DNA of 52,087 nt from Campylobacteraceae bacterium (GTDB taxonomy: Bacteria > Campylobacterota > Campylobacteria > Campylobacterales > Sulfurovaceae). Positions 33,804 to 40,042 of the stretch are shown one piece after another. How positions within the stretch are numbered: the first letter of the stretch is position 1; every line of letters begins with the position of its first letter. The stretch covers positions 1-52,087 of the forward strand of contig JAMOOQ010000018.1 in the NCBI GenBank assembly GCA_027100635.1. The letters are read 5' to 3'. The notes under the pieces were generated by a model that worked only from the letters and a program-made list of their open reading frames with translations, was not told the DNA's origin and ran no database searches. Both the position numbers and the translations under genes were made by a program.

Positions 33804-34625
33804 ATGGTAAAAGATTTAGTAATATACCCTGATAAAAGAATAGGTGTAGTATCAAGTGATGTAAGGGTATTTGACGACGAGTTAATAGAGTTGATTGAAG
33901 ATATGAAAGATACAATGAAAGAGCATAATAGCAATGGATTATCGGCTATCCAAATTGCTGTTCCTGCATCAATTATGATTATCAAAAATAGTGATGGTGA
34001 GTTTTTAGAATTTATAAATCCTAGAGTTGTTAATCACTCAGGAGAATTTGACTCTACAGAAACTACACAATATTTGCCAAATATCACAAGAACATTTAAA
34101 AGATATGAAAGATTTAGCATGGTTTATGAAGATAGATATGGTAAACAACATACAATGAATGTAGAGGGTGAACTATCTGCTATTATTCAACGAAAAATTG
34201 ATTATATATTTGGTAGTTCGTTTGTGCATAAATTTAACCCTGCTGGACGAAAAGATATAGAAAATGAATTAGCAGGAAAAGGTAGTGATGGATCGTTTGA
34301 AGATTATGAAAATATATCAGGACGAGACTACTTTAAAAGTATAGCTTCAAAACTTCTATTCTTTCAATTTTTGACTCTTTTTTCTGTATTATTTAATTTA
34401 TCAAACGAAACACTAAATAATCTTTATACTTATGATAAAATTGCCACAGACTTATCAACTCTTTTAATTATAATTTATTTTATCTACTCAAAATATGAAG
34501 CAACAAAAAAACTATCTTGTACTGGATGTCAAGTTATAAGTTTTGCAACAGTTACAGTTAAATTCTTTGGAATTATTGCTATTTTATTCTTATTAAGCTA
34601 TTATTTGGTAAACCCTAATATTTAA
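33804..34625 (+). CDS. Degenerate peptide-deformylase-like membrane protein (pseudoenzyme)
   Basis: Residues 1-145 follow the peptide deformylase fold: YPDKRIGVVSSDV at the start, SNGLSAIQIAVP for motif I (normally GxGLAAxQ), then FINPRVV. Motif II (EGCLS) is replaced by TTQYLPNI, so the metal-binding Cys is lost. Motif III (QHEIDH) reads QRKIDY (129-134), so both His and the catalytic Glu are gone. The C-terminal ~100 residues contain three hydrophobic helices (about 178-196, 214-230, 250-269). It is almost certainly not a deformylase. I infer a membrane-tethered binding or regulatory protein. A GGAG site precedes the ATG. Confidence 0.75.
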   Translation: MVKDLVIYPDKRIGVVSSDVRVFDDELIELIEDMKDTMKEHNSNGLSAIQIAVPASIMIIKNSDGEFLEFINPRVVNHSGEFDSTETTQYLPNITRTFKRYERFSMVYEDRYGKQHTMNVEGELSAIIQRKIDYIFGSSFVHKFNPAGRKDIENELAGKGSDGSFEDYENISGRDYFKSIASKLLFFQFLTLFSVLFNLSNETLNNLYTYDKIATDLSTLLIIIYFIYSKYEATKKLSCTGCQVISFATVTVKFFGIIAILFLLSYYLVNPNI

Positions 34626-35072: not shown

Positions 35073-36479
35073 ATGAATGAAATTAAATGTCCACATTGTA
35101 AAAAAGATTTTAAAATAGATGAAGCTGGTTATGCTGATATACTTAAACAAGTTCGTGACCATCAATTTGAAAAAGAACTAAAAAATAGACTTGAAATTGC
35201 AGAGAAAGAAAAAGAAAGTGCTGTTAAAATTGCTGAGGCTAATATTAAAAGCTCTTTGCAAAAGGAAATAGTTAAAAAAGATAAAGAACTAATTGAGTTA
35301 AAAACTAAAAGCGATACTGAAATTACTGAAATAGAGAAAGAACGTGATAATCTTGCTAATGATTTAAAAACACAAGAGAATGATAAAAATAGTGCGATTA
35401 AACTAGCAGAAGCTAATATTAAAAATTCTTTACAAGATGAATTAGCAGAAAAGGATAAAGAACTATTAGAATTAAAAGCTAAAAGTGATACAAAACTTGC
35501 TCAAATGAAATCTACAATTGAAAATATAGCAACTAAAAATAAATTAGATATTTCTCAAGCTATTAAAAATATAGAAAAAGAACGTGATAATCTTGCTAAT
35601 GATTTAAAAATTAAAGAGATAGAAAAAGAGTCACTTGAAATCACAATTAAAGAAGATTTTACAAATCAGCTAGTTATAAAAGATTACACAATTCAAATGA
35701 AAGATGATGAAATAGCTCGTTTAAAAGATTTCAAGCAGAAACTTTCAACAAAAATGGTTGGTGAAACTTTAGAGCAACATTGTGAAACTGAATTTAATAA
35801 ACTTCGTGCAACAGCATTTCCGAATGCTTATTTTGAAAAAGATAATGATTCAAGAGGAGGTAATAAAGGTGATTTCATTTATAAAGAAAATGATGAAGTA
35901 GGAAATGAAATTATTTCAATTATGTTTGAAATGAAAAACGAAAATGATGAAACTATAACTAAAAAAAGAAATGAGGATTTCTTTGCAAAACTAGATAAAG
36001 ACCGTAATCAAAAAAATTGTGAATATGCAGTTTTAGTCTCTCTTTTAGAATCGGAAAATGAATTTTATAATACAGGTATAGTTGATGTTTCATATAAATT
36101 TAAGAAAATGTATGTAATTCGCCCACAATTTTTTATTCAAATAATCACATTACTTAGAAATGCTGCAATGAATTCAATGGAATATAAAGTGGAATTAAAT
36201 TTAATGAAAAATCAAAATATGGACATTACAAATTTTGAAGAAAAAATAAATACATTTAAAACAGGATTTGCAAAAAATTATGATTTAGCTAGTCGTAAAT
36301 TTAAAATAGCTATTGATGAAATTGATAAAACAATTACTCATCTTCAAAAAACAAAAGATGCTCTGTTGTCATCAGAAAATAACTTACGCTTAGCAAATAA
36401 TAAAGCAGAAGATTTGACAATAAGAAAATTAACATACGGAAACCCTACAATGAAAGCAAAATTTGATGAGTTAAAATAA
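35073..36479 (+). CDS. DUF2130 domain protein with repeated coiled coil
   Basis: The 468-aa protein starts with a treble-clef-like CPHCKKDF zinc motif. A long charged coiled coil follows (about 30-235) containing two near-identical repeats ([12 protein letters not shown] occurs twice; [11 protein letters not shown] and [11 protein letters not shown]). The C-terminal DUF2130 domain spans about 240-400 ([25 protein letters not shown] and [11 protein letters not shown]). DUF2130 is related to restriction-endonuclease-like folds in some descriptions, but its function is unproven. An AAGGA site precedes the ATG. The DNA-level duplication inside the coiled coil suggests recent repeat expansion. Confidence 0.85.
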
Positions 36480-36521: not shown

Positions 36522-37016
36522 TTGAATAAATACGCAGTGGCTTTTACAGGACCATCAGGAAGTGGGAAGACTACATTGGTTGAAAAACTTTCAATTGAGT
36601 TAATAAAAATTAAACAAGTAGCGATTATCAAAAATGACCCAAAAGATAAAGCAATTTTTGATGTAGAGGGGAAAGATAGTTATAAGTTTTCTCAAACAGG
36701 TGCAGAGGTGGTGGTGACTTCTCCTACAAGGACTACATATTTTAGCCAAAGAGAAAAAACTCTTGATGAGGTTGTGAGTATGTTAAGTAATTTTGATATA
36801 CTTCTTGTTGAGGGGCTTAAGACTTTGCCTTTGCCACGAATTGCTATATTTAGAAATAAGATAGATGAGAGTTATTTTAGTTGTAGTGAAGCGATAGCTG
36901 TGGATAATAGCATAAATTTAAGTGATTATGATATACCTAAAAATATAGATATATTAGATTTAAATAATACACAAATGATAATAGAGTGGATAGAAAAAAA
37001 TTCCAAGGAGATATAA
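36522..37016 (+). CDS. mobB: Molybdopterin-guanine dinucleotide biosynthesis protein B
   Basis: The 164-aa P-loop GTPase has Walker A FTGPSGSGKTTLVEKL (about 8-23). It continues with IIKNDPKDKAIFDVEGKDSYKFSQTGAEVVV and LLVEGLKTLPLPRIAIFR, the MobB signature. It assists MobA in adding GMP to molybdopterin. The start is TTG with GGAG 8 bp upstream. Its last codons lie inside a 24-bp direct repeat whose second copy is directly before fbp. fbp was therefore probably once its immediate downstream neighbour, separated now by the inserted cassette. Confidence 0.92.
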   Translation: MNKYAVAFTGPSGSGKTTLVEKLSIELIKIKQVAIIKNDPKDKAIFDVEGKDSYKFSQTGAEVVVTSPTRTTYFSQREKTLDEVVSMLSNFDILLVEGLKTLPLPRIAIFRNKIDESYFSCSEAIAVDNSINLSDYDIPKNIDILDLNNTQMIIEWIEKNSKEI

Positions 37017-37018
37017 AT
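36995..37018 (+). repeat. 24-bp direct repeat, left copy (end of mobB)
   Basis: The copy runs from six A residues through TTCCAAGGAGATATAAAT and includes the mobB stop codon (TAA at 37014-37016). An identical 24-bp copy is at 39163-39186, where it supplies the fbp ribosome-binding site and the first two bases of the fbp ATG. The repeat brackets the inserted cassette. Confidence 0.9.
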
Positions 37019-37049: not shown

Positions 37050-37076
37050 TTGGATATACATATAAAAGGATATATT

Positions 37077-37322
37077 ATGACTGCAACAATTTCAAGCTGG
37101 GATAATTCACAAGGTCTCAGATTTCCAAAAGAGATTATGAAAGAGTTAAGTTTATCTATTGGAGATAAAGTTAAAGTTTTAATTAAAAATAAAAAAATTA
37201 TCTTCGAACCATTAAAGCAAGAGAGAGCCATATATGATATTAATGATTTGGTTGCTAAAATACCTCAAAATTATAAAGTTTTTGAAGAGTTTAATGATAA
37301 AAATGGGTTAGAAGAGTGCTAA
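37077..37322 (+). CDS. MazE/AbrB-type antitoxin
   Basis: The 81-aa product starts MTATISSWDNSQGLRFPKEI and has the SpoVT/AbrB swapped-hairpin pattern (W-x-N-S-x-G-L-R-x-P, then IGDKVKVLIKNKKIIFEPL). The acidic C-terminal tail is typical of MazE antitoxins that cover the MazF toxin. I start at 37077 because AAAGGA lies 7 bp upstream. A longer in-frame TTG start (37050) would run through the promoter -10 region. The adjacent mazF is truncated, so the antitoxin is now an orphan. Confidence 0.8.
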   Translation: MTATISSWDNSQGLRFPKEIMKELSLSIGDKVKVLIKNKKIIFEPLKQERAIYDINDLVAKIPQNYKVFEEFNDKNGLEEC

Positions 37323-37447
37323 AATATATACCTGAACAAGGTGATCTTGTTGCTTTAAATTTTGACCCACAACAAAGGCGAAGACCTACAATAATTATTA
37401 CTAATAAAGTATTTAACAAAACCTATAAAATGTCAAATTTTTTCTAA
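37316..37447 (+). pseudogene. Truncated MazF-type toxin fragment
   Basis: A GTG-started frame overlapping the mazE stop by 7 bp encodes 43 aa: IPEQGDLVALNFDPQQRRRPTIIITNKVFNKTY in family order. This matches the MazF N-terminus (YxPxxGDxxxxxFDPQ...RRPxxVxS). It then ends in a stop after MSNFF. The conserved second half of MazF (the CPIT segment and C-terminal helix) is absent. Only ~50 bp separate it from the next gene, so the toxin is deleted, not frameshifted. The overlapping start with mazE shows it was once a normal mazEF pair. Confidence 0.75.
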
Positions 37448-37498
37448 AGTACATAATATCATGATATATATTAAAATAAATTTTGGAAAGGGGTATAA

Positions 37499-38113
37499 TT
37501 GAAACAACTTCATACAGTAGGACATTCAATATATGAAATGGAAGATTTTCTTTTGTTATTAAAAAAAAATAGCATAAACACTATTGTAGATGTGCGAAGT
37601 ACACCTTATAGTAAATTTACTTCTCAATATAATAGGGAAACATTAAAGCATTATTTAAAAGAAAAGAAAATATACTATATTTTTATGGGTGATTTATTGG
37701 GTGCAAGATATGAAGATAAAAGTTTATTATTTGATAATGGTAAAGTAAATTTTAAAAAAGTACAAGAGATAAAATCTTTTCAAGATGGTATTACAAGGCT
37801 AGAGAAAGGCATTGCAAAAGGATATAATATATCTTTAATGTGTTCTGAAAAAGAAGCTTTTGATTGTCATAGATTTGGACTTATATCAGAGTTTTTAACA
37901 AAAAATGAAATAGATGTAAATCATATTTATCCAGATAAAGTAGTTTCTCAAAAAATATTGGAACAGCAACTTTTAAAGAAATATGATAAAAAACTTCCAA
38001 AAGCAGACCTGTTTAATCCTAATATAACAGAAAGTTTACAAATTCAGTTAGCTTATGAATTAAGAAATAAAGATATTGCCTATAACTCAATAACAAAAGA
38101 AGGTGATGACTAA
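37499..38113 (+). CDS. DUF488 family protein, first of pair
   Basis: The 204-aa protein has DUF488 hallmarks: LHTVGHSIYEMEDFLLLL at the N-terminus, VDVRSTPYSK (conserved DxR), and ISLMCSEKEAFDCHRFG with the C-x-E...CHR motif that probably forms the active or metal site. The start is a TTG with AAAGGGG 6-7 bp upstream. It overlaps the next gene by one base (TAATG). DUF488 proteins are frequent in defence and conflict neighbourhoods; their activity is unknown. Confidence 0.85.
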   Translation: MKQLHTVGHSIYEMEDFLLLLKKNSINTIVDVRSTPYSKFTSQYNRETLKHYLKEKKIYYIFMGDLLGARYEDKSLLFDNGKVNFKKVQEIKSFQDGITRLEKGIAKGYNISLMCSEKEAFDCHRFGLISEFLTKNEIDVNHIYPDKVVSQKILEQQLLKKYDKKLPKADLFNPNITESLQIQLAYELRNKDIAYNSITKEGDD

Positions 38114-38544
38114 TGAATATATTTACAATTGGTTTTTCTCAAAAAAGTGCAGAACAGTTTTTTAAATTATTAACAGAAAATAAAATAAAGAAATTAATTG
38201 ATATTAGATTAAATAATAAATCTCAACTTGCAGGTTTTGCAAATGCAAAACATTTGCCATATTTTTTAAAATTACATAATGTTGAATATGAGTATAAACC
38301 TGAATTAGCTCCATCTAAAGAGCTATTAAGTAGATATAAAGATAAAATTATAAATTGGGAAGAATATATCAAAGTTTATAATAAATTATTAATAGACAGA
38401 AATATTTTAAAAGATATATCTATTGATGACTTAGATAATATAGTACTATTATGTAGTGAACCAACTGCTGAACAATGCCATAGAAGATTGATGGCAGAAT
38501 ATTTAGCAAAACATTTTGAAAATATTAAAATAGGACATTTATAA
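38113..38544 (+). CDS. DUF488 family protein, second of pair
   Basis: The 143-aa protein is a short DUF488 member: IFTIGFSQKSAEQFFKLL, IDIRLNNKSQLAGFAN (DxR) and VLLCSEPTAEQCHRRLMAEYL (C-x-E...CHRR). It is clearly divergent from the first copy, so the pair is not a recent duplication. It overlaps both neighbours by a single base, indicating coupled translation and a fixed three-protein ratio. Confidence 0.85.
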   Translation: MNIFTIGFSQKSAEQFFKLLTENKIKKLIDIRLNNKSQLAGFANAKHLPYFLKLHNVEYEYKPELAPSKELLSRYKDKIINWEEYIKVYNKLLIDRNILKDISIDDLDNIVLLCSEPTAEQCHRRLMAEYLAKHFENIKIGHL

Positions 38545-39152
38545 TGAATAAAACATTAGTAATTTTTGCAAATTCTGTTAAACATCATCAGCATTGTATT
38601 GCAGGAAAAGATATTTTAACAAAAGAATGGATAAGACCTGTTGGAGATAAAAATGGTTGTGAATTAAAAGATGAACAAACAAAATATCAAAATAAATATG
38701 GAAAATATTTAGTCAAACCTTTACAAAAAATGAATATTAAATTTTTAAAAAAAGCACCTCTGAAACAACAACCTGAAAACTATATAATTTCAAATAAAAT
38801 TTGGGAACAAAATTATAAAATTGAACGAGAGGATATTAAAAGTTTTTTAGATAATCCTAATAATTTATGGTTGGATGGTGTTAGTAAAAACGATAGAGTA
38901 AATTATCAATTAATTCAAAATGGTAAAATAAAAATATCACAATCATTATACTTAATAAAAGTAAATGATTTACAAGTAAATAAAGAAGATAGAAGAGCTA
39001 CCTTTAGTTTCAATGATACTAATTATAATTTAGCAATAACAGACCCAAAAATACAATATTTTGATAATAGTAAGAAATCATATTATTTGGTTATTAGCTT
39101 AGGAGAGGAATTTAAAGGATATTGCTATAAATTGGTAGCTTCTATTTTATAA
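38544..39152 (+). CDS. Dual-OB-fold-like protein linked to the DUF488 pair
   Basis: The 202-aa protein starts LVIFANSVKHHQHCIAGKDI and has TKEWIRPVGD, then a second beta-rich half ending in NLAITDPKIQYFDNSKKSYYLVISLGEEFKGYCYKLVASIL (core DPKIQYF). I recognise the pattern of the dual OB (DuOB)-type nucleic-acid-binding proteins that accompany DUF488 genes; the family call needs a profile search. There is no signal or membrane helix. It overlaps the second DUF488 gene by one base and is the last gene of the cassette. Confidence 0.6.
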   Translation: MNKTLVIFANSVKHHQHCIAGKDILTKEWIRPVGDKNGCELKDEQTKYQNKYGKYLVKPLQKMNIKFLKKAPLKQQPENYIISNKIWEQNYKIEREDIKSFLDNPNNLWLDGVSKNDRVNYQLIQNGKIKISQSLYLIKVNDLQVNKEDRRATFSFNDTNYNLAITDPKIQYFDNSKKSYYLVISLGEEFKGYCYKLVASIL

Positions 39153-39162
39153 AATATAATAT

Positions 39163-39186
39163 AAAAAATTCCAAGGAGATATAAAT
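39163..39186 (+). repeat. 24-bp direct repeat, right copy (fbp ribosome-binding site)
   Basis: Identical to 36995-37018. The AAGGAG in it is the fbp ribosome-binding site, and the copy runs into the fbp start codon. Read in the mobB frame it still encodes the C-terminal KNSKEI-stop of MobB, showing that it is the original junction sequence. Confidence 0.9.
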
Positions 39187-40042
39187 GAAAGATATTTTTA
39201 AAGCGATAGAAGATGTAGCATTTGCAATTGATAATGCAATTAAGAATGAGGATTTAGGATATAGTGATAGCGAGAACTCTTCGGGAGAAGACCAACTAAA
39301 ACTTGATGTTCAAAGTGATAAGATTATAGAAGATAGATTTGCCTCTATAAGTTGTGTAAAAGCCCTTGTTAGCGAAGAGAAAGAGGGTGTGATGAGTATG
39401 AATGAGGGTGGTAAATATACTCTATGTTATGACCCTCTTGATGGTTCTAGTTTGGTTGATGTAAATTTATCTGTGGGTTCTATTTTTGGAATATATGAGG
39501 GTGAGTTGGAGGGTGCTAATATTATCGCTTCTGCTTATATAGTTTATGGTCCTAGAATTGAGCTTGTTTGGGTAGAAAAAGGTAAAATGCCTACTCTTTA
39601 TCGTGCTATTAATGGAAAGTTTAAAGAGATTGGTGAGATTAAGCTTAATGAAAAAGGTAAATTAAATGCTAGTGGTGGGACTCAGCAACATTGGGAAGTT
39701 AAACATAAAGCTTTTATTGATGGACTTTTCGCTTCTGGATATAGACTGAGATATAGTGGTGGAATGGTGCCTGATTTACATCAAATATTATTAAAAGGTG
39801 GAGGGCTATTCTCTTATCCTGCTACTACTGATAAACCTGATGGGAAGTTAAGACAACTATTTGAAGTTATCCCTTTTGCTCTTGTTTATGAAGGTGCTGG
39901 AGGTCAAGCAGTAGATGCAAATGGTAAAAGACTTTTAGAGCTAGTACCATCTCATCCTCATGATACATCACCATGTTTTTTTGGTTCAAATAGTGAAATA
40001 AATGCACTAAAAGATGCTTATGGGATAAATAATGTCAAATAG
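39185..40042 (+). CDS. fbp: Fructose-1,6-bisphosphatase class 1
   Basis: The enzyme hydrolyses fructose-1,6-bisphosphate in gluconeogenesis. The 285-aa protein has the metal-binding signature [22 protein letters not shown] (core DPLDGSS), LVSEEKEG, and the C-terminal [20 protein letters not shown] segment (core LFEVIP). It is shorter than E. coli Fbp (332 aa), as in other Campylobacterota. Its start abuts the right direct repeat, so translation was probably once coupled to mobB. It overlaps the following small gene by 11 bp. Confidence 0.95.

Follow-up and report, generated by a model that had tools for sequence, protein, structure and literature searches.

The three-gene operon at positions 37499–39152 of a 52,087-nucleotide stretch of DNA from a Campylobacteraceae bacterium is a further copy of the known candidate system PDC-M45 and not a new system. 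The whole stretch is referred to here as the window, and the genes are arranged in it in the order DUF488-B, DUF488-C and DuOB. On a balance of probability only slightly better than even, the triad is regarded as a complete, horizontally mobile anti-element defence module in which DuOB, a tandem OB-fold protein, would guide a pair of enzymes that alter DNA ends or damaged sites. Its gene set, its motifs, its mobility and its embedding in defence systems are observed, and its folds are supported moderately. A preliminary description of the window had read the operon as a conflict system directed at nucleic acids with an undescribed biochemistry. The anatomy given there was right, and so, broadly, was the kind of system (tandem OB folds, intact motifs, mobility and a link to defence). 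The word "undescribed" had to be given up, as PADLOC already lists the triad as PDC-M45, and Pfam and RefSeq name its parts. The fixed stoichiometry assumed there goes beyond what a sequence can tell.

The genes of the operon are tightly packed (Table 1). Both junctions consist of the bases TAATG with an overlap of one base each, exactly as first described. Both DUF488 proteins belong to the DUF488 superfamily by profile and have intact C-x-E...C-H-R and D-x-R motifs. In DUF488-B, these are D31-V-R33 and C115-S-E117...C123-H-R125; in DUF488-C, they are D30-I-R32 and C114-S-E116...C122-H-R124. Residues C115, E117, C123, H124 and R125 are invariant in 85 homologues of DUF488-B, and C114, E116, C122, H123 and R124 are found at 99–100% in 118 homologues of DUF488-C. 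Overall, the motif residues of these B-type and C-type homologues are conserved at 98–100%. Together with the Pfam matches, this conservation upholds the earlier claim of two divergent DUF488 proteins with intact motifs, and, judging from sequence, both appear to be catalytically intact. DUF488-C scores 43.9 bits (3e-11) against DUF488-N3a (PF22751), which is above the curated cut-off of 27 bits. DUF488-B was not assigned to this family because it reaches 16.3 bits only. The third protein matches the Pfam family DuOB ("dual OB-containing domain") with 159.8 bits over profile positions 1–210, that is, over its full length. Residues C18, R31 and E78 of DuOB are invariant among 65 diverse homologues. 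Such residues exceed the needs of a passive DNA binder and possibly have a role in an active site or an interface.

Table 1. Features of the triad and of its insertion site in the window.
Feature	Position	Strand	Evidence
mobB, left flank of insertion site	36522..37016	+	Pfam MobB 1e-24
24-bp direct repeat, left copy, end of mobB	36995..37018	.	exact match AAAAAATTCCAAGGAGATATAAAT
MazE-like antitoxin gene within insert, outside triad	37068..37322	+	Pfam MazE_antitoxin 2e-8
Truncated MazF-like reading frame, ~43 codons	37317..37448	+	by eye, from sequence
DUF488-B (PDC-M45B type), rhodanese/cysteine-phosphatase-like enzyme	37499..38113	+	204 aa, TTG start; Pfam DUF488 4e-19
DUF488-C (PDC-M45C type; Pfam "active DUF488-N3")	38113..38544	+	143 aa; Pfam DUF488 4e-21
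DuOB (PDC-M45A type), tandem OB-fold protein	38544..39152	+	202 aa; Pfam PF22557 1.2e-46
24-bp direct repeat, right copy, fbp ribosome-binding site	39163..39186	.	exact match
fbp (fructose-1,6-bisphosphatase), right flank of insertion site	39185..40042	+	Pfam FBPase

The identity of the system is given by three consecutive matches to the defence profiles of PADLOC-DB 2.0.0, namely PDC-M45B (1.3e-55), PDC-M45C (1.8e-52) and PDC-M45A, which is DuOB (1.2e-43). The same three families adjoin one another on one strand, and there is no difference in gene content. In RefSeq, the E. coli copies are named "dual OB domain-containing protein". The abbreviation PDC denotes a phage defence candidate. Such candidates come from a "guilt by embedding" study (Payne et al. 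2024, bioRxiv 10.1101/2024.01.29.577857, via PMC12988326) and, according to PMC12988326, are mostly unvalidated. In the literature searched, no paper was found that mentions PDC-M45 by name and no experimental paper on the triad was found; by their titles and abstracts, none of the DUF488 papers found is about defence. DUF488 was reportedly placed by Burroughs and Aravind (2023) in a RapZ-C-DUF488-DUF4326 clade, for which DNA-end processing in conflicts is said to have been predicted. The domain families are the same as those of the triad, and that prediction is general and computational. The embedding in BREX and type III CRISPR, the RecQ fusion and the formaldehyde/UvrAB link described below come from the present analysis.

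Structural models point to DNA as the partner of the system. AlphaFold2 models were built from alignments of the window and the related loci and reached a pLDDT of 94.4 for DuOB and 95.7 for DUF488-B. When the DuOB model was compared with the PDB by Foldseek, the best matches were HIN domains (E 9e-4), followed by Teb1, CST and RPA. HIN domains bind DNA in animal innate sensing. DuOB shares the overall tandem-OB fold with HIN-200 domains (IFI16, MNDA, p202) and with tandem OB proteins of the RPA/Teb1 type, but at about 10% identity and a TM of about 0.36, this likeness is weak, is one of fold type only and is not evidence of common ancestry; C18, R31 and E78 are DuOB's own. The proposal that the third protein is OB-like stands on its full-length Pfam match, its tandem-OB model and the Foldseek results, and the protein is probably a DNA binder. 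Profile searches, which could have assigned it to some other fold, returned DuOB.

For DUF488-B, the Foldseek matches include dual-specificity and PRL phosphatases and a baculovirus RNA 5'-phosphatase, with weak scores (E 0.01–0.05, target TM 0.4–0.5). The model has a Rossmann-like fold in which C115 closes the central strand (111–115) ahead of a helix. The catalytic cysteine of rhodaneses and phosphatases sits at the same place, at the end of a strand before a helix. No solved structures related by sequence to DUF488-B, DUF488-C or DuOB were found, and a library of viral folds gave weak matches only. Further information comes from fusions. In one locus (L107:1179-4142), DuOB forms a single protein with a complete RecQ helicase; an archaeal locus (L046:7391-8734) has it joined to an RQC domain, and Calothrix (L071:12241-13935) to WD40 repeats. 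The RecQ and RQC fusions favour DNA over RNA as the target.

The triad is carried on an insert between mobB and fbp, and the latter gene is present in 28 of 31 relatives. The site is empty, and mobB directly adjoins fbp, in G393, G003 and G250, three relatives from the same family. In the window, the two genes are separated by 2.1 kb delimited by an exact 24-bp direct repeat, by which mobB keeps its end and fbp its ribosome-binding site. The insertion is also present in the sister species G397, where the triad occupies the identical site and its proteins are 79, 80 and 70% identical to those of the window; the exact 24-bp repeat was not found at that site. The inserted cassette of the preliminary description is confirmed by the empty sites and the repeat. 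The G+C content of the insert is 24%, compared with 29% for the window. The dN/dS values of the three genes against G397 are about 0.13, 0.19 and 0.24, and the triad is therefore under purifying selection. Three further genomes of the genus were searched and lack DuOB. A core chromosomal locus, which would have contradicted the earlier reading, was looked for and rejected in view of the empty sites and of the presence of the triad in no more than 4 of the 397 genomes of the phylum.

The surroundings of the insert show several other features. A broken toxin-antitoxin pair (window 37068-37448) is carried along in it. Both the MazE-like gene and the truncated MazF-like start are missing from the G397 insert, which means either a later gain in the lineage of the window or a loss in G397. 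As a component of the system, the pair was rejected because it is not in the sister insert. The region upstream of mobB is variable, with GmrSD_N and HEPN genes in the sister species (L021:10903-12137) and a DUF2130 gene in the window (35073-36479), and the surroundings of mobB look like a small integration hotspot. At 33804-34625 of the window, a peptide deformylase-like domain is followed by an apparent membrane-spanning tail, which is an unusual pairing. A solo copy of DUF488-B is found elsewhere in the same genome (G000, contig C44, L028:8997-9632), inserted between pheT and aroA and 74% identical to DUF488-B of the window over the aligned core; neither DuOB nor DUF488-C was found near it.

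The wider distribution of the triad is patchy. DuOB is present in four of the 397 genomes of the phylum and absent from 393; in two other phyla, it occurs in 28 of 194 and 6 of 198 genomes. When about 85,000 genomes were scanned with a DUF488-C profile, at least 559 relatives were obtained, of which the 80 nearest were studied. DuOB, DUF488-C and a second enzyme lie on one strand in 69 of these 80. Most of the remaining loci end at contig edges, and there are four or five genuine exceptions to the full triad (L095, L112, L114, L119 and perhaps L051). The sample was picked by closeness to DUF488-C and therefore represents the triad-type clade and not DUF488 proteins in general. These loci come from many bacterial phyla and from archaea. 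DuOB may be the first or the last gene of the operon. In a second variant, found on plasmids and prophage-like contigs, an mSLOG-DUF4326 protein often takes the place of DUF488-B. On the DUF488-C tree, order and variant together amount to nine changes and the DUF4326 variant to two. The pairwise distances of DUF488-B, DUF488-C and DuOB are correlated with r = 0.80, 0.61 and 0.62, the highest value under the null being 0.11, and shared ancestry contributes to these correlations.

DUF488-C is the enzyme present in both variants. DUF4326 has been assigned to the rhodanese-phosphatase superfamily and is predicted to act on phosphates of ADP-ribose derivatives (PMC9503650); it has also been predicted to bridge NAD+ signalling and DNA modification (PMC7824862). 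The swap of DUF488-B for mSLOG-DUF4326 suggests that the substrate of the second enzyme may be a sugar-phosphate or a nucleotide end. It also fits the single clade proposed for DUF488 and DUF4326 by Burroughs and Aravind. The PDC-M45 models of PADLOC do not include the DUF4326 protein of this variant, which is known from genomes other than that of the window.

Evidence for a role in defence comes from the loci of relatives. In L126 and L123, two closely related IMG/VR contigs, a B-type triad lies within a BREX operon with pglX and pglZ on either side, where it may serve BREX as an accessory immune module. The genes of this embedded triad overlap, and brxL follows downstream (L126:2884-13056 and L123). 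In these loci, PglX of L123 and BrxL were called by PADLOC profiles, PglZ by Pfam on both contigs, and PglX of L126 by its homology to that of L123 (blastp). On plasmid pAt1 of Allochromatium, the triad stands among csm6, csx16 and cas1 and adjoins a type III-B cmr set. A copy in Agrobacterium adjoins CBASS genes, one in Klebsiella adjoins a NotI-family restriction-modification pair, and one in Moraxella has a viperin-type gene at a distance of about 5 kb. On the other hand, a comparison of chromosomal neighbours in near and far sets of 140 proteins showed no clear PADLOC enrichment, with 94 families near the triad and 87 far from it, numbers that count families and not proteins. In the window itself, no known defence neighbour was found with Pfam and PADLOC profiles.

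Close relatives of DUF488-C also occur alone, in a quite different setting. One such gene, with the same motifs as DUF488-C of the triad, is found on an IncHI2 plasmid (L162:14001-14432), where its cassette also comprises frmR, formaldehyde dehydrogenase (frmA), S-formylglutathione hydrolase (fghA), UvrA and UvrB. The IncHI2 form is known from 85 plasmid records, and the cassette of one copy was examined. On plasmids of Aeromonas, Comamonas and Shinella (L163, L164 and L165), the solo gene is accompanied by part of this set and by RarA. The solo proteins form one clade with a support of 99, beside the proteobacterial DUF488-C proteins of triads. Unlike the triads, these cassettes have repair and detoxification genes, and not DuOB or DUF488-B, beside DUF488-C. 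Their content suggests that C-type chemistry may act on DNA damage or adducts, and it strengthens a DNA-directed mechanism and a repair function alike.

For this reason, a module for repair or adduct tolerance has to be weighed first among the alternatives. DUF488-C would then reshape or remove damaged ends or aldehyde adducts, DuOB would target single-stranded or broken DNA, and the triad would be a stress-tolerance cargo. The solo clade in frmR/frmA/fghA/uvrA/uvrB and rarA cassettes argues for this, as do the RecQ and RQC fusions of DuOB and the chromosomal triad loci, whose neighbours are mostly ordinary genes. However, none of the triad loci examined had UvrA, UvrB, FrmA or FghA by blastp, and the triad was absent from the formaldehyde/UvrAB cassettes. 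Its embedding in BREX and its proximity to type III CRISPR, CBASS and restriction systems point away from repair, and its occurrence is very patchy for such a function. Repair is considered unlikely, at roughly one chance in four.

Mobility is a further point in favour of a defence module. On a Klebsiella plasmid of 4,167 bp, DuOB, DUF488-C and DUF4326 are the only recognised cargo, and no further plasmid gene seems necessary. In E. coli, the variant occupies ffs and the e14 site. The elements at ffs are small and bear an integrase, and one of them also has type-III-restriction-like and HNH genes; at the e14 site, the variant adjoins mcrA. A second alternative is that plasmids and prophages use the triad as a counter-defence or clean-up module that undoes host modifications, such as ADP-ribose-derived groups, on incoming nucleic acid or nucleotides. 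The triad is indeed often carried by plasmids and by prophage-like contigs, there next to portal, terminase and head genes, and DUF4326, which is predicted to act on ADP-ribose phosphates, occurs both in phages and in large DNA viruses (PMC9503650, PMC7824862). However, no match to DuOB or to DUF488-C of the triad was found in 50,697 phage records, a result for which an ordinary phage gene was also rejected, even though prophage-like contigs do carry the triad. Moreover, the triad is common in plain chromosomal loci distant from viruses, and one would hardly expect an anti-defence tool to be embedded, as the triad is, in operons of host-type defence. Counter-defence is improbable.

The least probable explanation, and a very doubtful one, is a plasmid-addiction or toxin-antitoxin system made up of a toxic DUF488 protein and a partner that holds it in check: the compact overlapping operon on small plasmids and the solo DUF488-B copy in the same genome fit it, but both DUF488 proteins have full active sites and neither resembles a small labile antitoxin, profile searches gave no antitoxin family within the triad, solo B and solo C genes exist without partners, and the adjoining MazE/F remnant is not in the sister insert.

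The preferred explanation, an anti-element defence module, can be outlined as follows. From its fold and its fusions, DuOB would dock on DNA. DUF488-C would be the core enzyme, and the second enzyme would be another member of the same cysteine-based rhodanese/phosphatase clade, either DUF488-B or, in the variant, mSLOG-DUF4326. Jointly, they would probably carry out a transfer of phosphate, sugar or adduct at DNA ends or damaged sites, and replicating or broken DNA of an invader would be made unrepairable or uncopyable. DNA binding, complex formation, the reaction and its outcome are what we infer for the triad. No gene for a self/non-self marker or a sensor is visible for it. Hosts and elements most likely deploy the triad against other elements. 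A more speculative idea, which we hold only tentatively and regard as unlikely, is that DUF488-C represents a new enzyme class that works on DNA adducts or on DNA ends that are damaged or blocked. Its chemistry would serve repair in the formaldehyde/UvrAB cassettes and would become an immune weapon against mobile elements in the company of DuOB and a second enzyme.

The window adds one copy to PDC-M45, a candidate system that is widespread in bacteria and archaea, and the present evidence directs its mechanism towards DNA. The residues for mutation are named, and the 4.2-kb plasmid variant provides a natural minimal version. With the relative in the formaldehyde/UvrAB cassettes, the reaction of the system becomes testable.
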